The position numbers and the translations under genes were made by a program. The notes beneath the pieces are model-generated. The model ran no database searches. It was given only the letters and a program-made list of their open reading frames with translations, and was not told the DNA's origin. Below, piece after piece: positions 25,456 through 62,177 of a stretch of DNA of 64,000 nucleotides. Source of the stretch: a bacterium (GTDB lineage: Bacteria; Sysuimicrobiota; Sysuimicrobiia; Sysuimicrobiales; Segetimicrobiaceae); the NCBI GenBank assembly GCA_035295165.1, contig DATGJN010000062.1:1-64000 (forward strand), given 5' to 3'. Each line of letters begins with the position of its first letter. Position 1 is the first letter of the stretch.

Positions 25456-26850
25456 TCAGTTCGCGGCGACCGCGGCGGACTGCCACGCCACCGGGGCCAC
25501 CTCAGGGTAATCGCGCAACGCCCCCTCGAGCACGGCCTTCGCCCGCTCGAGCCCCTGCGAGGTGGCGGCCTCGGCGCGGATGACCAGCGCCGGTTGGGTG
25601 TTACTCGCCCGGACGAGCCCCCACCCGTCCGGAAACAGCACGCGCGCGCCGTCGACCTCGATCACCTCGTAGCGTCCGCGCAGCCCGCGCGTGAGTGCGG
25701 CCACGATCTCGAACTTCCGCTCGTCGGGACAGGCGACCCGAATCTCCGGGGTGGTGTGATACCCGGGGATCTCCGCGGTCAGCGACGACAGCGCCCGCTC
25801 CGTACGCGAGAGCATTCGCAGCAACCGGCCCGCCGCGTACAGCGCGTCGTCGTACCCGTCGTGTTCGTCGGCGAAGAACATGTGCCCCGACATCTCGCCG
25901 GCGAACAGGGCGCCGACTTCGCGCATCCGCGCCTTGACGAGCGAATGGCCGGTCCGCGTGAACTCGGGACGTCCGCCGAGGCGGCGGATCTCGTCGATCA
26001 ACGCCTGGGAGCACTTGACCTCGACCAGCGCGACGACGCCCGGGTGCGCCGCGAGCACTTCGCGCCAGAACAGCGCCATCAGGAGGTCTCCCCACACGAT
26101 CTCCCCGCGATCGTCCACGGCGCCGAGCCGGTCGCCGTCGCCGTCGAAGCCGATCCCCAGATCGGCGTCCACGCGGCGGACCTCCGCCGAAAGCGCCGCG
26201 AGGTTGCGGGGGTCGGCCGGATCGGGATCGTGGTGCGGGAACCGCGGATCGAGTCCGCAGTGAAGGGTGACGACGTCGCATCCCCACCCGAGCAAAATGT
26301 CCGGGGCGAACAAGCCGGCGGTGCCGTTGCCGCAGTCCACGGCCACGCGCAGCCGGCGCGGCCCGAGCACGATCTTCTCCCGCAGCCCTGCGACATAGGC
26401 GTCGCGCACGTCCTCCAGGCGGACGCGGCCGGCGCCGCTCGCGAACGTGCCGCGCTCCGCGACGTCGCGGACTTCCAGGACCTGCTCCCCGTGCAGCGTG
26501 CCGGCGCCGTGGGCGAGCTTGAACCCGTTGAACAGCGGGGGGTTGTGGCTGGCGGTGACCATCACGCCGGCGTCGGCGCCGACATAGGGCATCGCGAAGT
26601 ACATCATCGGCGTCAGGCACAGCCCGATGGCGGTCACATCACAGCCGGCCGCGGTCAACCCGTGCACCATCGCCGCGTAGAGGGCCGGCGAGGTCGTGCG
26701 GCCGTCGTGCCCGACGACCACCCGGACGTCGCCGCCCTGCCGCCGGACGTACGTCCCGAATGCGCGACCGATCCGCACCGCGTCTGCGGCGTCGAAGTCA
26801 CGGCCGACGACACCGCGAACGTCGCACTCGCGAAAGATGCGCGGGTTCAC
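25456..26850 (-). CDS. Phosphomannomutase/phosphoglucomutase
   Basis: A 464-residue alpha-D-phosphohexomutase. All four domain signatures are present: the phosphoserine loop VTASHNPP, the Mg loop GFDGDGDRLG, the sugar-binding GEMSGHMFF and the phosphate-binding RASNTQP. It interconverts hexose 1- and 6-phosphates, supplying sugar-1-phosphate for polysaccharide or nucleotide-sugar synthesis. The start is GTG. It follows the HprK-related kinase gene by nine bases and is the last gene of the Pho-box-led operon, which suggests the operon handles a sugar-phosphate intermediate. Annotated as ManB/AlgC-like; glucose versus mannose preference is not readable. Confidence 0.92.
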   Translation of the reverse strand: MNPRIFRECDVRGVVGRDFDAADAVRIGRAFGTYVRRQGGDVRVVVGHDGRTTSPALYAAMVHGLTAAGCDVTAIGLCLTPMMYFAMPYVGADAGVMVTASHNPPLFNGFKLAHGAGTLHGEQVLEVRDVAERGTFASGAGRVRLEDVRDAYVAGLREKIVLGPRRLRVAVDCGNGTAGLFAPDILLGWGCDVVTLHCGLDPRFPHHDPDPADPRNLAALSAEVRRVDADLGIGFDGDGDRLGAVDDRGEIVWGDLLMALFWREVLAAHPGVVALVEVKCSQALIDEIRRLGGRPEFTRTGHSLVKARMREVGALFAGEMSGHMFFADEHDGYDDALYAAGRLLRMLSRTERALSSLTAEIPGYHTTPEIRVACPDERKFEIVAALTRGLRGRYEVIEVDGARVLFPDGWGLVRASNTQPALVIRAEAATSQGLERAKAVLEGALRDYPEVAPVAWQSAAVAAN

Positions 26851-26859
26851 GGAAACGGG

Positions 26860-27930
26860 TTAGGACCCGCCGGTGGCCGGGGAGAGCGTGGGGCCCGCGA
26901 GCACCAACGCCGCGAGCCGGTCCAGGTCCGCGTGGCCGGACACTTCGTACACGGAGACCCGCTCGCACACCGCGCGCAGAATCGCCTGTTGGACCGCGGC
27001 GTCCGGCGGCGTCGCATCGTACACGCCGACACCCTTCATCGTCGGCACGAGCGCGCCCACGCGCTCATCGGGCGAGAGGGTGTGCACGCTCCAGCCGCGG
27101 CTGCTTGGGCTCCACCGGAGCAGGAAGACGGCGCGCAGCCAGCCGCGCAGCTGCACGGTCCCCGGCCCGTAGATGGCCTCCACGTCCACGTCGTGCTTGT
27201 GCTCGAGGGTCCACAGCTGCTCCGGCGGGAGCGGCTGGTAGCGCACCCGCTCCGCCGCGGGCAGCAGACGGGTGAGCCGGGGAATGCGGAGCAGGGTTCC
27301 AGGATTCACGCGCGGCTGCTTGGGCACCCCCACCATCTCGGCCCCCCCCGGCGTGGACCGGATGAACAGCCGGTCGTTGCTCACGAGGTGCTGGCGCTTC
27401 TCGACGAGCATGAGGGCGAGAGTGGACTTCCCCGACCCGGACGACGAGGCGAACGCGATCCCGCCGGTGTCCCCGAGGATCGCCGAGGCGTGCAGCATCA
27501 CGTACCCGCGCCGGAGCATCGCCTTCGCAAACACCATCATGACGGCGTTGACGGCCTGGTTGAAGTTCGCGTCGAGGTCGCCGACGACATAGTGGACGGA
27601 GTCCGTGACGTAGATCACCACGCCCGTTCGCCGTTTGAGCACCACCCGCGCGTCCGGGGCATCGTAGAACGCTTCTTTGATCCGGTCGCTGCGTGCACGT
27701 CGGGGCACGTCGACCATCCGGGCCGGGTCGTACACCGGAGATCCCGAGAGGAGGACGATCTCGGGGGCCCCGGCCTCCGCCGCCGCGGCGAGGTACGCGC
27801 CGAAGTACCTGCGCAGCCGCTCGTGCACCGCCGGCGCGTTGGTGCGCACGCGCAGGGCCACACCGGCGATGTCGAGCCCGAGGTCCGCGTCAGGCGGATA
27901 CGCGTGAAGGATCGATGCCAGCTCGCTCAT
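26860..27930 (-). CDS. HprK-related kinase (GAK-system kinase B-like)
   Basis: A 356-residue protein whose second half resembles the kinase domain of HPr kinase/phosphorylase. VMLHASAILGD (about 144-154) is followed by the Walker A SSSGSGKST (162-170) and SNDRL (184-188), the HprK-like acidic segment. The N-terminal ~130 residues are unlike HprK; there is no PTS gene or HPr nearby, so the target is not HPr. This matches my recollection of the 'HprK-related kinase B' family of the GAK set. It starts 41 bases inside the end of the ATP-grasp gene and is followed after nine bases by the phosphohexomutase gene. The substrate is unknown. Confidence 0.75.
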   Translation of the reverse strand: MSELASILHAYPPDADLGLDIAGVALRVRTNAPAVHERLRRYFGAYLAAAAEAGAPEIVLLSGSPVYDPARMVDVPRRARSDRIKEAFYDAPDARVVLKRRTGVVIYVTDSVHYVVGDLDANFNQAVNAVMMVFAKAMLRRGYVMLHASAILGDTGGIAFASSSGSGKSTLALMLVEKRQHLVSNDRLFIRSTPGGAEMVGVPKQPRVNPGTLLRIPRLTRLLPAAERVRYQPLPPEQLWTLEHKHDVDVEAIYGPGTVQLRGWLRAVFLLRWSPSSRGWSVHTLSPDERVGALVPTMKGVGVYDATPPDAAVQQAILRAVCERVSVYEVSGHADLDRLAALVLAGPTLSPATGGS

Positions 27931-28819
27931 CAGGAGACCGTCCCGTCAGCACCCGAACGACGTGCTCAGCGTAGCGCTGGGCGGCGTCAATACCCTGCGT
28001 ACGCCACAATCCTCCAAACCCGCCGAACGCGCTCACCTCGTACATGAGGTACCCGGTGGGCCCTTCCACCAGGTCCACGCCGGTAAACGTCAGACCGAAC
28101 AGGTCCGCGGCACGAACGGCGAGCTGCGCCATCTCGGCGGTCACGACACACGGCTCGTAGTGCCCGCCCGCCGCGGTGGTCGTGAGCCAGACGTCGCGCT
28201 CAGCCACCCGATAGTACGCGCCCAGCACCTCCCCGGCCAGGACGATCACGCCGATGTCCCGGCCGGCGTGCGGCACGTACTCCTGGACGTAGAACGGCAT
28301 TTTCCACTCCCGCTGCCACCGCCGGAGCATGAGCCGGATCGGCCCCTGCGCGCCGAGCATGAGCATGCCGTTGCCCTTCGACGTGAAGAGCGGCTTGACG
28401 ACCGCACGCCCCCACCGCCGCACCGTGGCGGCCGCGGCGTGCACGCTCTCGGTCACGACCGTCCGCGGAATCGGGATTCCGCCCTGGCTCAAGCGCTCGG
28501 TCATCCGATACCGGTCTTGCACGCTCTCGATCGCCGCGGCCGGGCTGAACACGCGCACCCCGCGCGCCTCGAGCTGACTCAGCAGGTGCACGCGGCTCGG
28601 CGCCATGGGATCGGTGGTGACGCCGAGCTTCTTCACCACAACCGCGTCGACCCCGCCCAGATCGACGCCGTCGTGCCGGACCGCGCCGTCCGGCAGCTCG
28701 ACCACGCAATCGGATGCGGCGAACGCGAACGCGTCGCAGCCGCACCGTTCCAGCGCCAGCCGGAGGTGCTCGGTCGACCACGCGCCCGGGATCCCGGCGA
28801 CCCCGACGCGCAGCGTCAC
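27890..28819 (-). CDS. ATP-grasp enzyme (GAK-system type)
   Basis: A 309-residue RimK-like ATP-grasp protein. ATP-binding Lys lies in VVKPLFTSKGNGM (about 140-152), and the adenine-site segment is FYVQEYVPHAG. Metal-binding Asp and Glu lie in FTGVDLVEG and MYEVSAFGGF, where Ser replaces the usual Asn. ATP-grasp enzymes ligate a carboxylate or phosphate-activated acid to an amine or thiol. It starts with GTG 28819, overlapping the TGA of the PhoU-kinase fusion (GTGA), so the two are translationally coupled. The Lys-rich, short version with a C-terminal LWRTQGIDAAQRYAEHV fits the GAK ATP-grasp group as I remember it; the substrate is unknown. Confidence 0.75.
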   Translation of the reverse strand: MTLRVGVAGIPGAWSTEHLRLALERCGCDAFAFAASDCVVELPDGAVRHDGVDLGGVDAVVVKKLGVTTDPMAPSRVHLLSQLEARGVRVFSPAAAIESVQDRYRMTERLSQGGIPIPRTVVTESVHAAAATVRRWGRAVVKPLFTSKGNGMLMLGAQGPIRLMLRRWQREWKMPFYVQEYVPHAGRDIGVIVLAGEVLGAYYRVAERDVWLTTTAAGGHYEPCVVTAEMAQLAVRAADLFGLTFTGVDLVEGPTGYLMYEVSAFGGFGGLWRTQGIDAAQRYAEHVVRVLTGRSPDERAGIDPSRVSA

Positions 28820-30405
28820 GACCCCTCCACCGCCCGCTGCAGCGCCGCCACTCCCCGGTGGAGCAGCGTCTCGGCGTGGGCCGGATCGGTGATGACCCGG
28901 ACCGAAGTGATGCACGACCGCGCGAGGCTGAGGAGCAGGCGCCGCTCAAACGCCGCATCCCCATGCTCGACCGCGAACCGTCGGGCGCATCCCTCGACCA
29001 TCGCGTTCACTGCGGCGACATCCTCGCGGACGGCCGGGGTCAGGTCGGGCCGCCGGTCCATGGACAGCAGGAACACGCTCACGTCCTGGAGGTAATCCCC
29101 GAGCCGCGACCGGTGCACGTCGATGAACTTGATCTGGCCTGTGCGCTCGCTGTAGAGTACGTTGTTGGCGTTGAAATCCCCGTGCAGCCACACCGAGAAC
29201 GCCGGCCCCAGCCTCGGCTCCAACTCCTCCGCGCGGGCCAGCAGATCCGCAAGCCGCACCGGGCCGCCGGGGAGCGGCACGCCATGCTCCACCTGGGGCC
29301 GTAACTCCGGATGGAGCGCGAAGGCCTCGGGCAGGCGGCGAAGGATCTGCGCGACGTAGTCCACCGTCGGGGGCGTGGCAGTCAGCGTACTTTGCCAAAC
29401 CTGCCTCACGGCGTCAAGCACCTGCTGGGTCGCGGCCAGCTTCGCGTCCCGTGGCGCGTCCGACAGATACAACTCCGAGAGCAGCGAGCTGTCCACGAAC
29501 TCCCGCAACAGCGCCTGGCGGTCTTTCACGGTCACCGAGCCGAGGACGCGCGGGGTCAGGTCACCGGGGATCCGCTCCCAGACCTTGAGCTTTTCCTCCT
29601 CTTCCTGGATCTTCCGGCGGGACCCCTCTTTGTACAGCACGTTCCCTTCGGGGCCGGAGATCCGCGCGACCACCGCGCCGCTGATGCCGTCCCAGTACGG
29701 CCGGAACTCCCCGTCGGCCTGGATGGCTTCGGGCAGAAGGAGGCCGAGCTGCTGGTACTGGGAAAACTTGAGCCGGCGCCCGGTGAGCAGGAAGATCGCC
29801 TGCTCACCGACGTTGAGCACGTAGTCGGCCACCTTCTCAAGGTATTTCATTACGGTCAGGCAGTGCAGCAGATACGGCACCGCGATCGGCTCGGACTGCA
29901 TGCGCTGGCGCGCCTCTCCGAGAAAGCGGACGTAGTGCGTGTCCAGCTCGGACTCCCGCATGCACGCCCGGCGCGCCAGATCCAGGTCGCGCCGGGCCAC
30001 CGCTTCCACGACTTCGGTGACGGCGACCACCGCGCACGTCCCGAGTTCGTCGAACCTAAACTCGACGTGGGGAATGCCCTCGCGCACCAGCAACCGCACG
30101 CGTTTCGCGATGTGCGTGCCGGCGTCACCGATCCGCTCCAGGTTGAGCGCGATCTTGACCGTCGCGCGGACGGTGCGGAGCCCGTCCGGGGTCAGGCCCC
30201 CGGTCGCGGCGAGGGCGAAACAGCGCTCCTCCAGCTCGAGGTTGAGGTTGTCGACGGCGTCGTCGCGCTCGATGATCTCCTCGGCCAGCGTCAGATCGCG
30301 GGTGTCATAACAGCGAAGGGCGCGCTCGAGTTGGTCAACAACGAGCCGCCCAAGCTTTGTGACCTCACCCTGCAGACCGGTGAGCAGTGTGTCCTGGGCC
30401 ACCAT
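28816..30405 (-). CDS. PhoU domain fused to an aminoglycoside-phosphotransferase-like kinase
   Basis: A 529-residue fusion. Residues 1-210 form two PhoU three-helix repeats, each with its metal-binding-type motif (NLERIGDAGTHIA at 88-100; KYLEKVADYVLNVGEQ at 187-202). Residues 230-529 form an APH/choline-kinase-like domain. It has an N-lobe (VVARISGPEGNVLYKEGSRR), the catalytic HGDFNANNVL (408-417) and the metal-binding FIDVHRS (427-433). PhoU normally links Pst transport to PhoR signalling; here the domain may put a small-molecule kinase under phosphate-related control. AAGAAGG precedes ATG 30405; the stop overlaps the ATP-grasp start. The window also has a canonical phoU, so this is a second, specialised copy. 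Confidence 0.82.
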   Translation of the reverse strand: MVAQDTLLTGLQGEVTKLGRLVVDQLERALRCYDTRDLTLAEEIIERDDAVDNLNLELEERCFALAATGGLTPDGLRTVRATVKIALNLERIGDAGTHIAKRVRLLVREGIPHVEFRFDELGTCAVVAVTEVVEAVARRDLDLARRACMRESELDTHYVRFLGEARQRMQSEPIAVPYLLHCLTVMKYLEKVADYVLNVGEQAIFLLTGRRLKFSQYQQLGLLLPEAIQADGEFRPYWDGISGAVVARISGPEGNVLYKEGSRRKIQEEEEKLKVWERIPGDLTPRVLGSVTVKDRQALLREFVDSSLLSELYLSDAPRDAKLAATQQVLDAVRQVWQSTLTATPPTVDYVAQILRRLPEAFALHPELRPQVEHGVPLPGGPVRLADLLARAEELEPRLGPAFSVWLHGDFNANNVLYSERTGQIKFIDVHRSRLGDYLQDVSVFLLSMDRRPDLTPAVREDVAAVNAMVEGCARRFAVEHGDAAFERRLLLSLARSCITSVRVITDPAHAETLLHRGVAALQRAVEGS

Positions 30406-30505
30406 GGCCTTCTTGGCTGTGTCCTATCCCGCCGGGGCCGCGCGGCGCATTCCGCGACCCCGGCGGTGGTCATTCGAGATGAACGGGTGTGGGGGGTGAG
30501 AGGCG

Positions 30506-30838
30506 CTATTGGTGCGCCGCGGTACCTGCGGGCTCGCGGCCGCCTTCCTCCCGCGGATCGACGGTGATCTCCAACGCCTCCGCGGCGGACGCATATTCGG
30601 GCTTCCACGACAGCTCCAGGGCGATGCTGCCGGCCGCCTTCTCCGGCTTCCCTTCGGCCTCGATCTCAAACGCGAGCATCGCGGTCGGCTCGAGCCGAAC
30701 GACGCGCTCGCCGGCGGCGAGCCCCACCACGCCGCGCCGCAGACCGTCTGCGATTCTCACGAGGTAGTCCGCCACCTGCGACGCCTCGAGGGTCGCCGAG
30801 AACTCGAACTTGTCATTCCGCTCACTGTGCTTCGCCAT
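30506..30838 (-). CDS. amphi-Trp domain protein
   Basis: A 110-residue protein. KFEFSATLEASQVADYLVRI opens an amphipathic helix pair (ADYLVRIADGLRRG). GLAAGERVVRLEP and strands ending SIALELSWKPEY follow, with the conserved Trp that gives the amphi-Trp family its name. A Pro/Glu/Gly tail of about 25 residues follows. AAGGAGG lies six bases before the ATG. It is the second of two related small proteins ahead of the PhoU-kinase gene. In GAK loci these small amphipathic proteins are thought to be substrates or scaffolds of the kinases; no member has a known activity. Confidence 0.78.
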   Translation of the reverse strand: MAKHSERNDKFEFSATLEASQVADYLVRIADGLRRGVVGLAAGERVVRLEPTAMLAFEIEAEGKPEKAAGSIALELSWKPEYASAAEALEITVDPREEGGREPAGTAAHQ

Positions 30839-30867
30839 CTGAGCCTCCTTGGCCGCCGCCGCGCCGG

Positions 30868-31110
30868 TCACGGCGATGTGGTCACGCTGAGCGGCACGCG
30901 CCAGTGCAGGCCGATCTGCATCGACCCCTCGCGTCCGTTTTCCTCCGCACGAATCTCCAGACGAATCACCTGGCCGAGGTGGTACGCGTGCCGGTGCTCG
31001 CTGGATCGAATGATCAGCGTCCCGTGCATCAGCCCAAGCGACAGCTGATTGATCAGTTCCGCGGCTTCCGTGCACGGTAGCGCCGTCGTTACCTTGAGCG
31101 GTTCTGCCAT
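30868..31110 (-). CDS. Small amphi-Trp-like protein
   Basis: An 80-residue relative of the following gene: an amphipathic helix TEAAELINQLSLGLMHGT, then VIRLEIRAEENG and a final MQIGLHWRVPL strand. The latter matches the alternating pattern with conserved Trp of the amphi-Trp fold. Similarity to its neighbour is mainly in pattern, so the duplication is old. GGGGAG lies upstream of ATG 31110. It sits 29 bases before the next gene and 61 after the PHP gene, inside the operon. Confidence 0.62.
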   Translation of the reverse strand: MAEPLKVTTALPCTEAAELINQLSLGLMHGTLIIRSSEHRHAYHLGQVIRLEIRAEENGREGSMQIGLHWRVPLSVTTSP

Positions 31111-31171
31111 CCCGTCACGCTCCCCGCTACTCTTCGTACGCTCGCCGCGCCGACGTCGTCAACGCGATTGC

Positions 31172-31996
31172 TCACCGCACCCGGCTGGCCGCCTCGGAGA
31201 GACTCACGACGCTGGACGCCGTGGGGCGCATGTACGTCCCCGCGAGTTCCGCGCGGGCCCGCCGCGCCTTCGCGATCCGCTTATAGGCCGCGCTGATCTG
31301 CACCGCGAGCGGTCCGTAGCTCTGGCTCTCCGCTGCGGCGCGGTGCTCGCGGATCGCGGACGTCACGGACGCCTGTGTGATCTCATCGATCGGGAGAAGG
31401 GTCGCCTTGATGCCGACCTGCGCCCAGAAGTGCGCATCGCTCCCGGCGACCACCGGCACCCCGTACTCGCGGGCCGCGGCGCGGACGCGATCGTCCGCCG
31501 AAAAGTCCTTGCCGTTGAACTCCAGCGCATCGAGCACCGCCAACCGCCGTCCGAGCCTCCACAACTCCTTGCCCGGACGAAACATGTGTGCGCCGATGAC
31601 GAACGCGCCCACCCGGTGCACGACCGCGACCGCCTCGTCGAACGAGGGCCGGTATCCCGTGGTGGCAGGCTCGGACAGACCCGCGTCGAGAGCCCGAATC
31701 TGTTCCACCCGGCCGAGCACGATCAGATCACACCCTTCCCGGATGCTCAGCTCCACCCCGGCCAGCAACCGCATCCCCTGAGGCCCCTCGTAGACGCCGT
31801 CCGCGTCCCGGTAGGGGAACTCCCGCCGCAGCGCGCCATGAATGTTCCAGTAGTCGGTCGCGTGGAAGTGCTCCACAAGCGCCACACCGTCGAGCCCGAG
31901 CCGCCCTGCTTGTGCCACGAACTGCCATACCGCCCTGGTGGTGAACGGAAATGACTTGGAAAGTTTGGCATGTGTATGCAGGTCGATGCGCTTCAC
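31172..31996 (-). CDS. PHP-domain metal-dependent phosphoesterase
   Basis: A 274-residue PHP-fold protein. Metal ligands are visible in IDLHTHAKLS (HxH), ALVEHFHATD, LLAGVELSIREG and VAGSDAHFWAQVG. Stand-alone PHP proteins hydrolyse phosphomonoesters or nucleotides (histidinol-phosphatase, 3',5'-nucleoside bisphosphate or RNA trimming). The start is GTG at 31996 with GGAGGG eight bases upstream. A C-terminal ~40-residue helical tail (YKRIAKARRARAELAG) is unusual. It is the first gene of the operon and follows a phased TTAAC Pho-box-like repeat by about 180 bases, so phosphate-starvation induction is predicted. Confidence 0.82.
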   Translation of the reverse strand: MKRIDLHTHAKLSKSFPFTTRAVWQFVAQAGRLGLDGVALVEHFHATDYWNIHGALRREFPYRDADGVYEGPQGMRLLAGVELSIREGCDLIVLGRVEQIRALDAGLSEPATTGYRPSFDEAVAVVHRVGAFVIGAHMFRPGKELWRLGRRLAVLDALEFNGKDFSADDRVRAAAREYGVPVVAGSDAHFWAQVGIKATLLPIDEITQASVTSAIREHRAAAESQSYGPLAVQISAAYKRIAKARRARAELAGTYMRPTASSVVSLSEAASRVR

Positions 31997-32174
31997 CGTT
32001 TAGTCCCTCCACGCGTGCTGCGATTATGCGGCGTCACGTTCAGGAAGTCGCGCTCCGTCCGTCCGCCTTATGCCCGATCGCCACTGTCACAAGACCTCCC
32101 CCTCCTGGCCCCAACTCTAGCCCCCCTTGTTTAACCCCGCAAGATGCCATTCAAAACTGGAGGCAAAGAAAACG

Positions 32175-32196
32175 TTAACGGAAGGTTAACGAAATG
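32175..32196 (-). promoter_or_regulatory. Pho-box-like direct repeat ahead of the GAK-like operon
   Basis: TTAACGGAAGG is followed immediately by TTAACGAAATG, two TTAAC units at exactly 11-bp spacing, the geometry of PhoP/PhoB boxes. TTAA is palindromic, so orientation is ambiguous, but only the minus-strand PHP gene (start 31996) lies downstream of it. It is the only such repeat near this operon. The same spacing precedes pstC, phoB and pstS in this window. Confidence 0.6.
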
Positions 32197-32266
32197 GGCG
32201 GTAGAGAGCACCGCAGCCCGAGCCGGCAGGATGGGGCGTCGGAGGACTCCCTGAGGAGTGTGCGGG

Positions 32267-32300
32267 CCGGGCGGCGGCTCGACTAGGAGCCGCCGCCCGG
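32267..32300 (-). terminator. Terminator of the RND operon
   Basis: CCGGGCGGCGGCTC pairs perfectly with GAGCCGCCGCCCGG around a 6-base loop. It is a 14-bp stem 23 bases beyond the stop codon of the RND transporter gene. Confidence 0.75.
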
Positions 32301-32322
32301 CGGGACCGATTCCGTGGCGGGG

Positions 32323-35484
<3,162 letters not shown>

Positions 35485-38302: not shown

Positions 38303-38962
38303 CTAGGCGTTCAACTCCCTCAGCGTGCCCGTGACCATGTAGATCACGCGCTCGGCGATGTTGGTGGCGTGGTCGCCCATGCGCTCCAACGCTTGGGCCG
38401 CCATCAGCAGATGGGTGGCGCGCTGAATCGTCTTCGGGTCCTCGAGCATGAACGTGAGCAACTCCCGGAATACCTGGCTGTAGAGGTGGTCCACGTCGTC
38501 GTCCGCCGCCGCCATGCGCTCGGCGAGCGCGACGTCGTGGCGAACGAAGGCCTCGAGGCCGTCCCGGAGCATCGCGCGAACCATGTCCGCCATCCGCGGA
38601 ATGTCGATCAGCGGCTTCACGAGCGGCTCCGCAGCGATCCGCTGCACGATCCGCGCGATATCTTCGGCGTGATCGCCGACGCGTTCGAGGTCGATCGTCA
38701 TCACCCAGATCGCGGCGATCGTCCGCAGATCCTTGGCCATCGGCTGCTGCGTCGCCATGAGCCGCATGCACCGTTCCTCGAGCTCGAGGTGCAGCGCATC
38801 GATGGTGTTGTCTGCCGCCACGATCGCCCCGGCGAGCTCCACATTGCGGGAGCGCAGCGCGTCGATGGAGCGGCGCACCGCGTCCTGGACGAGGGTTCCC
38901 AGGCGGAGAAGGTCGTCCCGAAGCCGCCGCAGGTCCTGATCGAACGCTTCTCGGGTCGTCAT
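38303..38962 (-). CDS. phoU: Phosphate-specific transport system accessory protein PhoU
   Basis: A 219-residue PhoU of normal length with two three-helix repeats. Metal-site motifs are TIDLERVGDHAEDIARI and QALERMGDHATNIAE, both with the E/DxxxD pattern. It links Pst transport activity to the sensor kinase, keeping PhoR off when phosphate is plentiful. It ends the pstC-pstA-pstB-phoU operon, starting 98 bases after pstB. A second PhoU domain is fused to a kinase at 28816-30405. Confidence 0.95.
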   Translation of the reverse strand: MTTREAFDQDLRRLRDDLLRLGTLVQDAVRRSIDALRSRNVELAGAIVAADNTIDALHLELEERCMRLMATQQPMAKDLRTIAAIWVMTIDLERVGDHAEDIARIVQRIAAEPLVKPLIDIPRMADMVRAMLRDGLEAFVRHDVALAERMAAADDDVDHLYSQVFRELLTFMLEDPKTIQRATHLLMAAQALERMGDHATNIAERVIYMVTGTLRELNA

Positions 38963-44514: not shown

Positions 44515-44540
44515 GGAATTAATGCCGGCTTAATCGGCGC
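44515..44540 (-). promoter_or_regulatory. Pho box upstream of phoB
   Basis: TTAA cores at 44519 and 44530, exactly 11 bp apart, 70-85 bases before the phoB start. It fits autoregulation by PhoB. Confidence 0.6.
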
Positions 44541-45587: not shown

Positions 45588-46106
45588 ATCGCCGGTGTTG
45601 TTCACGGCAAGTTCCAAGACACCGTTCGGCGCGTGCTGGCATGCGGGCCGACCGGTCTGCTCGACCGCGGCCCGCATGGGCGCACGCTTCTGTCCCGCGA
45701 ACTTCACGTCCGACATGATCCATGTTCACGCTACCGCGCGATCGTTAACCCGCGGTGATCGAAGCGTTAAGCGAAGCCTAAATCCCTTAATCCCGGCTTC
45801 ACACGGAACCGTCGGATTTCATTAGGGTGTAGCGGGAGGGTGTAGCGGGCGACGTGAACGATTCGCGTTCGGGAAGGTTCCAGGCCTATTCGGAGGGTGC
45901 GGACCTTCTTCGGATACCACTCGGTTCCCCAAACATGGGTTCGAAAGATTGTACGGTCCCAATCACCTTGGTCCATACACTTTGGGTAAAGTCAGCAGGC
46001 GGTGGTAAATAGTATTTCCGGGACAACTGGAAGATCCCACACGAGCGGGGCACTACGGCGGGCGGCGGCCAGGGATTTCGTGACGACGCAAGAAGGAGAA
46101 GAGCAT
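45588..46106. other. Intergenic with orphan Pho box; lower GC
   Basis: Composition is visibly less GC-rich than the flanks. It contains a phased TTAA repeat at 45745-45791 but no downstream gene closer than the VOC gene. No other element was recognised. Confidence 0.4.
45745..45791. promoter_or_regulatory. Orphan Pho-box-like repeat
   Basis: TTAA at 45745 and 45767 and CTAA at 45778 share 11-bp phase (22 and 11), and a further TTAA lies at 45787, two bases out of phase. The TTAACC...TTAAG arrangement is the same as ahead of pstC. The nearest downstream gene (VOC) is over 300 bases away. Confidence 0.5.
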
Positions 46107-60595: not shown

Positions 60596-62119
60596 CTATG
60601 GTGATACCGGCGCTCCTGTCTCGGGGTCCAGGAACAGCGTTCCCGGCCGCTGCAGCTGCGCGAACGCGAACATGTTGAGCATCGATCCCGCGATCGCGTC
60701 GAAGGATTGGTCCCCGATCCGGCCGAGATCCCAGTTGTCCTCGATGAAGCGGAGGATCGAGGACTGGTCCGTCAATGTGTGGTCCACGAAGTTCACCCTG
60801 GCCCACGGCGAGATCACGAGCAGCGGCAGGCGCGGACCGTAGCCGCACCGGCCCTGATAGGTGCCTGCCGCCGGCTTGCCGCACATCCCGGGCCCGAGGA
60901 GCGCGTCGATTGTCGATTCGGCCGACTGCATCATGACCGGCGCCAGCACGTGATCGTACCAACCGTCGGAGTCGTCGTAGTTGATGATCACAGCCATGCC
61001 CGACCAGGCGGGCAACCGCATCAATCGGTTGATCGTGTCGACGAGGAAGTGTTGCTCGTCGATCGGGTCCGAGTACCCGGCATGGCCGTCCTGGTACGCC
61101 GGGGCCTTCACGAAGCTCACCGCCGGGAGGCGGCCGGCTTGGGCCGCCGCCCAGAAGTCGATCAGGTCGTACTGGTGGTTCGCCTGGTCTGTCTGCCCGA
61201 TCATCGCGACCGAGGTCGGAGCCAGATGGTGCGGGTTCATGGTCGATTGATAGTACTCGAACGGCTGGTGGTGCGGGATATAATCTGCTACGTTCGCCTT
61301 GCCGACGTTCACGTGGGCGCTCCCGCACTCGGCCTTCGCGGCGCCGGGTGCGCTCGTCGGCCGGAATCCGCCCTCGAACCAGCCCCAAGTGACGTGCTTC
61401 GCGTTCAGCAGATCCCCGACGTTGCGCCCGATCATCGCGGCCGTCGCCCCTTTCGAGCAATCGTCGTAGGTCGGATCGAGGTCGTTGTACACGGTGCCGT
61501 TGAGGATGCGGCCGGAGATGTTGGGCGGAACCGCCCCATGGGTCTGACCGGCCACGAGGTTGAGCGCTCCGGGCGTCGAGGGGCCGAAGGTGGTACCGAA
61601 GGAGTTGTCGTTCATCGCAAAGTGCTGGGCGTAGTTCCAGAGCGCCGTGACCGTGTTGCCGTCATAGTAGTCCATGACCAGCCGGCGGTCGCAGGACCCG
61701 TACGACGCGCCGGTCTCCTCGACAAATCGGTTCATCAGCCCGCCGTTCGCGGCGCGCTGTTCCGCGGCGTACCCGTGGTCCATGTCGCAGGTCATCGCCT
61801 GGGAACGGTCGAGCCGGACCGGCTGCGCGCTGTTCGGATTACCCGTCAGCAGCGCGGGCGTGAGTCCGTTCACCGACGGCGTCGCCCGCGAGGCGTGGAA
61901 CGCGGGCCCGCCGGGAGCGTTCGTGGCGTACGGGTAGGTCGCGAAGTAGTGATCGAAGGACACGTTCTCCTGGAAGATCACAACGAGATGCTTGATCGGC
62001 GTGGTTGTGGGCGTCGCGTCGGACTGGGCATCCACGGGCGCCATCGCACCCCAGCCCAGCATGACGGTCAGGGCGGCGGCGATCGCCGCCGCCACGGCGG
62101 TGCGCACGATTCGTGTCAT
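60596..62119 (-). CDS. Secreted phosphoesterase, phospholipase C/AcpA family
   Basis: A 507-residue exported enzyme. Signal peptide: TAVAAAIAAALTVMLGWGAM. The family signature VVIFQENVSFDHYF follows at about 45-58. NYDDSDGWYDHV is the conserved metal-site segment and LVISPWARVNFVDHTLTD the C-terminal block. Members hydrolyse phospholipids, phosphomonoesters or teichoic-type polymers, releasing phosphate. GGGGAG precedes ATG 62119. A phased TTAA pair lies 60-85 bases upstream, predicting phosphate-starvation induction. Confidence 0.9.
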   Translation of the reverse strand: MTRIVRTAVAAAIAAALTVMLGWGAMAPVDAQSDATPTTTPIKHLVVIFQENVSFDHYFATYPYATNAPGGPAFHASRATPSVNGLTPALLTGNPNSAQPVRLDRSQAMTCDMDHGYAAEQRAANGGLMNRFVEETGASYGSCDRRLVMDYYDGNTVTALWNYAQHFAMNDNSFGTTFGPSTPGALNLVAGQTHGAVPPNISGRILNGTVYNDLDPTYDDCSKGATAAMIGRNVGDLLNAKHVTWGWFEGGFRPTSAPGAAKAECGSAHVNVGKANVADYIPHHQPFEYYQSTMNPHHLAPTSVAMIGQTDQANHQYDLIDFWAAAQAGRLPAVSFVKAPAYQDGHAGYSDPIDEQHFLVDTINRLMRLPAWSGMAVIINYDDSDGWYDHVLAPVMMQSAESTIDALLGPGMCGKPAAGTYQGRCGYGPRLPLLVISPWARVNFVDHTLTDQSSILRFIEDNWDLGRIGDQSFDAIAGSMLNMFAFAQLQRPGTLFLDPETGAPVSP

Positions 62120-62177
62120 CGTCACTCCCCTCACCTCAGACGGCAAGCGATTCCGGGGGCACTATAGCCAAGGGGCG

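Follow-up and report, generated by a model that had tools for sequence, protein, structure and literature searches.

Which process is served by an operon that joins a phosphatase, two kinases, an ATP-grasp enzyme and two small amphi-Trp proteins, and is it tied to the phosphate-uptake genes nearby? The question is raised by a 64,000-nt stretch of DNA (GenBank GCA_035295165.1, contig DATGJN010000062.1, positions 1-64,000 of the forward strand; hereafter the window) from a member of the Segetimicrobiaceae (Sysuimicrobiota), whose assembly (G000; 4.79 Mb, 121 contigs) is 98% complete. Seven open reading frames, all on the minus strand from 31996 to 25456, encode in order of transcription a PHP phosphoesterase, amphi-Trp 1, amphi-Trp 2, a fusion of PhoU with an APH-fold kinase (PhoU-kinase), a RimK-type ATP-grasp enzyme, HprK-related kinase B (HprK_B) and a phosphohexomutase. 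A first-pass annotation had named these families in seven co-directional genes, as the profile scores bear out; it had called them mostly overlapping, whereas only two of the six junctions overlap (PhoU-kinase/ATP-grasp by 4 bp, ATP-grasp/HprK_B by 41 bp) and the other gaps measure 9-103 bp. It had also recognised a GAK-like trio. To date GAK amounts to the names of protein models in NCBIfam, i.e., TIGR04354 (amphi-Trp), TIGR04355 (HprK_B), TIGR04356 (ATP-grasp), TIGR04357 (CofD) and TIGR04358 (XXXCH), and the literature library searched yielded no publication on GAK, amphi-Trp or HprK-related kinase B. Profiles, tree and gene order place the operon in GAK, as a distinct, divergent subtype with a canonical PHP enzyme, two amphi-Trp proteins and neither CofD nor XXXCH.

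GAK membership and the PhoU-kinase fusion

HprK_B and amphi-Trp 2 score above the NCBIfam cut-offs for GAK. For the ATP-grasp enzyme, TIGR04356 is the best of all models by 88 bits, its gene position is conserved and it falls within the supported clade of the subtype; because of the tree and the gene order, it and amphi-Trp 1 are counted as GAK members as well. Orthologues of amphi-Trp 1 occupy the same gene position in three other genomes (G001, G002 and G004). When the contigs of 84,980 species genomes were scanned with the kinase alignment, 506 relatives came up; the best 80 were kept and derive from Bacillota-labelled metagenome-assembled genomes, Chloroflexota, Rokubacteria, Planctomycetota, Thermodesulfobacteriota, Myxococcota, Nitrospinota, Nitrospirota, Pseudomonadota and candidate phyla. 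In most GAK loci, this operon included, the genes run PHP - amphi-Trp - PhoU-kinase - ATP-grasp - HprK_B, and the trio proposed in the first pass stands on both model hits and conserved order. A tree built from 81 ATP-grasp sequences joins the operon to loci from its own family, from Dehalococcoidia and from Rokubacteria and to the long-branched G079 locus (branch support 100/98), and resolves the canonical-PHP type of GAK as one clade. CofD (best score 90 bits, cut-off 340) and XXXCH (best E 0.87) are absent from the whole host assembly, which carries the earlier remark that they were not seen beyond the window. Neither is found in every GAK locus, i.e., they are not universal members; CofD is present in 39 of 46 loci with the divergent PHP family described below versus 0 of 9 loci with canonical PHP. 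The phosphohexomutase gene counts as accessory to the operon: it does not stand beside GAK in G001 or G002 and is found there in several other lineages.

New here is the finding that the PhoU-APH-kinase fusion belongs to the GAK core and is not a local addition. In a sample of 118 genomes, full-length PhoU-kinase (645-829 bits), GAK ATP-grasp (E<1e-60) and HprK_B (>130 bits) occurred in the identical nine genomes (G000-G004, G065, G072, G079 and G105), and none of the three reached these levels in the other 109; the remaining PhoU matches covered residues ~7-210 only, i.e., ordinary PhoU. The co-occurrence of PhoU fusions with GAK, which the first pass had proposed to check, thus met no exception in this sample. 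Among 86 GAK loci, HprK_B was present in all 86, ATP-grasp in 83 and the kinase in 76 (72 with PhoU), the misses lying mostly at contig ends. PhoU-kinase adjoins ATP-grasp in nearly all sampled loci, which span about ten phyla. Alignments with relatives found the catalytic residues of the operon's enzymes to be invariant: in PhoU-kinase (eight aligned members from several phyla) K259, E269, HGDFN 408-412, N415, D429 and the NLE/D motifs of PhoU; in HprK_B the P-loop G165-G167-K168, H147 and N185-D186-R187; and in the PHP phosphoesterase HxH, EH, GAH and SDAH (nine relatives). The PhoU part of the kinase is weaker in gammaproteobacteria.

Pho boxes and phosphate genes around GAK

In published Pho boxes, 8-bp repeats are separated by 3-bp linkers (CTTAACCT in cyanobacteria), and the boxes of Escherichia coli stand 10 bp ahead of a -10 hexamer TAN3T/A (PMC1906773). 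By its sequence architecture, the GAK promoter is a Pho-box promoter, in which tandem 11-bp boxes abut the -10 hexamer, and this too is new here. The two TTAAC units at 11-bp spacing that the first pass saw before the first gene (minus strand, 32189-32185 and 32178-32174) are real and open a longer array of six positions; its central three positions are degenerate and its final TTAAA (32134-32130) lies at +55. Genome-wide scans by sequence pattern placed perfect TTAAC-N6-TTAAC at three sites in the 4.79-Mb genome, one of them the GAK promoter. The array scores were 22 for pstC, 20 for GAK and 19 for pstS, compared to random maxima of 10-14 (252 kb of strand). With up to one mismatch allowed, TTAAC-N17-TTAAC-N10-TANNNT occurs at five places in the genome (control pattern, none), four of which precede pstC, pstS, a PF04185 phosphoesterase gene and a permease with GDPD; the fifth lies at 45770. 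A match to the boxes at pstC, phoB and pstS had been claimed; pstC and pstS agree, but the phoB site is weak (TTAAG-N6-TTAAT at 44518-44534) and has no -10 hexamer at the right place. In G001, G002 and G004 the GAK promoter is the top site around the operon; the array is conserved nearly base for base in the first two and in its architecture in G004.

Other sites of this kind lie elsewhere in the host. The sole match to the strict pattern outside the window contig (L136, on contig C6) precedes the permease-like and GDPD genes. The PF04185 phosphoesterase (275 bits; 60596-62146, minus strand), whose promoter at 62203-62161 reads TTAAC-N17-TTAAC-N10-TATAGT, probably scavenges phosphate as a member of the same regulon. 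A strong Pho-type promoter (score 17) at 45770-45728 on the minus strand, between phoB and pstS, has no recognisable gene downstream and may serve a small gene or an RNA that is not annotated.

Similar arrays recur in other phyla. Two Chloroflexota loci carry them directly before the PHP gene, as TTAAC-N6-TTAAC-N10-TATAAT (L055) and as a four-unit array followed by N10-TAGAAT (L056). Across 66 GAK operons, with the window, G001 and G002 left out, TTAAC triplets at period 11 were found in 16 at p<=0.01, compared to 0-1 at periods of 7-10 and 12-14; such arrays mark 24% of GAK promoters versus 13 of 219 other promoters of the same loci (6%, p=8e-5), an effect whose size is approximate since the statistics use single-base shuffles and the loci are not independent. 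Escherichia coli-type Pho boxes, looked for in gammaproteobacterial GAK promoters, gave no clear signal either way.

Phosphate genes also stand close by. In the window, pstCAB-phoU, phoR, phoB and pstS lie ~6-16 kb from the operon, and a standard, separate PhoU gene follows pstB at 38303. A pst or phoU gene lies within 10 kb of GAK in 15 of 86 loci from several unrelated lineages, i.e., 8/10 loci of the canonical-PHP subtype versus 7/76 elsewhere. In G004, GAK directly precedes pstS, the pst permease genes, pstB, phoU and a phosphohexomutase gene, and an OmpR-type response regulator is encoded upstream. GAK might nonetheless have another role, this lineage having merely placed the operon beside pst. 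Such a local linkage would account for the many loci outside the subtype, most of them in each case, that have no pst genes within 10 kb and no significant TTAAC array; however, PhoU is fused to the kinase in all sampled phyla, the enrichment at period 11 extends across phyla and the pst linkage arises in several unrelated lineages, and we consider this explanation quite improbable. Promoter, neighbours and PhoU-kinase fusion together suggest that GAK would be part of the phosphate-shortage response in bacteria of several phyla.

The features of the operon and its promoter are collected in Table 1. Upstream of the promoter, an RND transporter gene ends at 32323, and the hairpin that follows is a probable transcription barrier between that gene and the operon's own promoter. 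The operon region gave no Rfam match to an RNA element. An anti-phage defence system was rejected, PADLOC models matching none of the seven proteins.

Table 1. Genes and promoter features of the GAK operon, in window coordinates
Feature	Position	Strand	Profile scores and remarks
Hairpin, perfect 15-bp stem, no T-run, between RND gene and GAK promoter	32266..32301	-	-59.8 kcal/mol (111 nt), z -3.6, 0/200 shuffles as stable
Pho-box array, six positions in 11-bp register (TTAAC, TTAAC, TTTGC, TTTTG, ATCTT, TTAAA)	32130..32189	-	second-best site in 252 kb of strand scanned
-10 hexamer TAGAGT, 10 nt past last box	32114..32119	-	spacing to TANNNT as at pstC, pstS and the PF04185 phosphoesterase
PHP-family phosphoesterase, PHP1 type, 274 aa	31172..31996	-	PHP_C 42.3 bits; CehA/McbA 38.6 bits (below cut-off of 80)
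Amphi-Trp protein 1, 80 aa, divergent	30868..31110	-	TIGR04354 22.4 bits (below cut-off of 31)
Amphi-Trp protein 2, ~110 aa	30509..30838	-	TIGR04354 55.3 bits (cut-off 31); PF20068 47.5 bits
PhoU domain + APH-fold kinase fusion, 529 aa	28816..30405	-	phoU_full 136 bits (cut-off 130); APH 41 bits
RimK-type ATP-grasp, GAK type, 309 aa, GTG start	27890..28819	-	TIGR04356 270.8 bits (cut-off 300); next model 182.8
HprK-related kinase B, 356 aa	26860..27930	-	TIGR04355 243.3 bits (cut-off 200)
Phosphohexomutase, 464 aa, last gene, 9 bp after HprK	25456..26850	-	PgmG 480 bits (cut-off 600); Arch_GlmM 376 bits; four PGM_PMM domains

The phosphatase slot

A phosphatase is almost always part of GAK, and in most loci a PHP gene fills that slot; this is likewise new here. 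Of the 66 loci whose upstream DNA reached 2.5 kb or more, 62 had a phosphatase, i.e., a canonical PHP enzyme in 9, a family of ~390 residues in 46 and other types, in gammaproteobacteria, in 7, leaving four with none. The gammaproteobacterial replacements are SixA-NUDIX, histidine phosphatase and metallophosphoesterase genes, seen in marine loci at L067:11054-12040, L081:11081-11782 and L079:11827-13227. The loci in which no phosphatase was recognised are L090 and L096 (Solidesulfovibrio magneticus) and L070 and L074 (Myxococcota).

The ~390-residue family, which precedes amphi-Trp in most GAK loci (e.g., L077:5920-7080 and L041:13015-14196), has no Pfam or NCBIfam match. Its motifs are HxH, QHN, E, H, PHP and DxH, and its AlphaFold2 model (mean confidence, pLDDT, 86.7) matched three PDB entries at probability 1.00, i.e., RNase AM and, represented twice, one putative metal-dependent phosphoesterase; both are PHP enzymes. 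The template-modelling scores (TM-scores) were modest (0.38-0.55), as expected with a helical insert. By motifs and modelled fold, the family is thus a predicted divergent PHP enzyme with such an insert. The link between the two PHP families rests on motifs and fold; the profile-profile comparison of the canonical with the divergent family gave no match, and a PDB sequence search with the divergent family returned nothing reliable. In addition, a large protein combining a PHP-like N-terminus with a GT4 glycosyltransferase recurs near GAK (L075:3328-5775, minus strand; L044, L057, L063, L099, L102 and L127).

A Pho promoter together with a phosphatase would also suit a pathway for phosphate starvation in which a phosphorylated polymer is built or mobilised, and RimK-type enzymes are able to add several residues in succession, as established for RimK. 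However, the genes conserved near GAK include none for a polymerase, for export or for granules, and the phosphohexomutase is only accessory. Nothing points to the polymeric compound that the first pass had entertained, and we regard this pathway as very unlikely.

A proposed cycle and its relation to known systems

We consider it probable that the operon is a GAK subtype within the Pho regulon that runs a reversible, phosphate-gated modification cycle, and is not a transport or storage machine. Its first step is strongly supported by the promoter sequence: PhoB would bind the TTAAC array beside the -10 box and switch the operon on at phosphate shortage. The PhoU domain would then sense the phosphate state and gate the fused APH-fold kinase; HprK_B, PhoU-kinase and the RimK-type ATP-grasp enzyme may act with the amphi-Trp proteins on one substrate, by ATP-dependent phosphorylation and ligation of an amino acid or similar group; and the PHP phosphatase would reverse the modification. 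The phosphohexomutase probably supplies or consumes a sugar phosphate.

The part played by amphi-Trp is the most conditional. From gene order alone we infer that these proteins are partners of the enzymes, and only by analogy might they be the substrate. Amphi-Trp 2 is modelled as one helix and four strands; the sole invariant residue of the family is Trp78, with no invariant Ser or Thr, and a PDB sequence search with amphi-Trp found nothing reliable. Two further amphi-Trp proteins are encoded away from GAK in the host (C33:31980-32165 and C37:13827-14012), with uninformative neighbour genes; the one on C33 shares 80% identity with amphi-Trp 1. The domain also scores above cut-off in the archaeon Haloferax volcanii, one of the control genomes, and is thus wider than GAK in bacteria.

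Enzymes of the RimK family ligate amino acids to small proteins or cofactors. This kinship suggests ligation to amphi-Trp or to a metabolite, yet the ExN motif reads ExS here. One alternative is carrier-protein biosynthesis as in LysW-dependent lysine synthesis, in which the RimK-type enzyme would load an amino acid on amphi-Trp, the kinases would phosphorylate the bound group, and PHP or the mutase would finish a phosphorylated compound. The nearest solved structures of the ATP-grasp enzyme, LysX and RimK, do act on small proteins, almost all loci have amphi-Trp genes flanking the enzymes, and the CofD-like and mutase genes of other loci suggest synthesis. Amphi-Trp has no conserved C-terminal residue for loading, however, and no product-finishing reductase or transferase is conserved in the canonical-PHP subtype, which makes this scheme rather unlikely. 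A second alternative is signalling without a metabolic product: PhoU-kinase and HprK_B would phosphorylate amphi-Trp as a regulator of other proteins, comparable to HPr-Ser-P, and PHP would reset it. The operon does combine a PhoU domain with two kinases and a phosphatase, which is consistent with this, as is HPr kinase being the nearest solved relative of HprK_B. Nevertheless, the amphi-Trp model is unlike HPr, no Ser or Thr is constant in the family, the D-D of HPr kinase is N-D in HprK_B, and the ATP-grasp enzyme would be left without a role; we therefore doubt it.

Several observations weigh against the modification cycle itself. The ATP-grasp enzyme (271/300 bits) and amphi-Trp 1 (22/31 bits) fall below the NCBIfam cut-offs; the planctomycete locus L111 is a true local exception, without PhoU-kinase despite 4.3 kb of upstream DNA; and significant arrays are missing from most GAK promoters outside the canonical-PHP subtype. 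The amphi-Trp model matched no solved structure, HPr included, although small folds are easily missed, and the alignment has no conserved C-terminus of the kind that LysW offers LysX. The main text of a low-phosphate fitness screen in Desulfovibrio alaskensis (PMC5193443) does not name the GAK genes under the terms looked for.

Tentatively, and with less confidence than for the operon itself, GAK may be an unrecognised branch of phosphate homeostasis in ~10 phyla, in which PhoB-induced, PhoU-gated kinases with a PHP enzyme of their own make a phosphorylated messenger or carrier-bound compound that reports or buffers phosphate. With a PhoU-kinase core, a phosphatase and Pho-box promoters, an unexplained gene set of several hundred species becomes a testable phosphate-response pathway, and a conserved protein family with no match in Pfam or NCBIfam is assigned a predicted PHP fold.

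Compared to the GAK system at large, the operon has ATP-grasp, amphi-Trp and HprK_B of the same families, by profile and tree, in the same order; it differs in forming a separate deep clade (100/98), in its canonical instead of divergent PHP, in having no CofD or XXXCH and in its appended phosphohexomutase. With PhoU of the Pst/PhoR complex it shares a domain above the phoU_full cut-off and the motifs NLExxxD and YxExxxD, but here an APH-fold kinase is joined to this domain and the fusion is encoded in the GAK operon. HprK_B has the P-loop, the conserved His and the following Asp region of HprK, its nearest solved structure; only a short central stretch matches, N-D replaces D-D, a motif of its own (KxPRxNPGT) is present and there is no HPr-like partner. 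HprK_B was rejected as an HPr kinase/phosphorylase, the full HPr kinase profile giving 17.8 bits against a cut-off of 240 and the amphi-Trp model no match to HPr; amphi-Trp as an HPr-like protein likewise drew no support from the fold search, in which small folds are easily missed. The ATP-grasp enzyme resembles the RimK, LysX and MptN ligases over its whole length (MptN 183 bits; RimK/LysX structures E 1e-32 to 1e-30). The ExN metal motif is known from RimK; in 8/8 aligned GAK members it is ExS (EVSAFGGF or EASPFGGF). Finally, the promoter shares with the cyanobacterial SphR/PhoB boxes (CTTAACCT, 8 bp with a 3-bp linker) the TTAAC core, the 11-bp period and the position next to the -10 box, and differs in that the boxes here form a six-position array with a degenerate centre.

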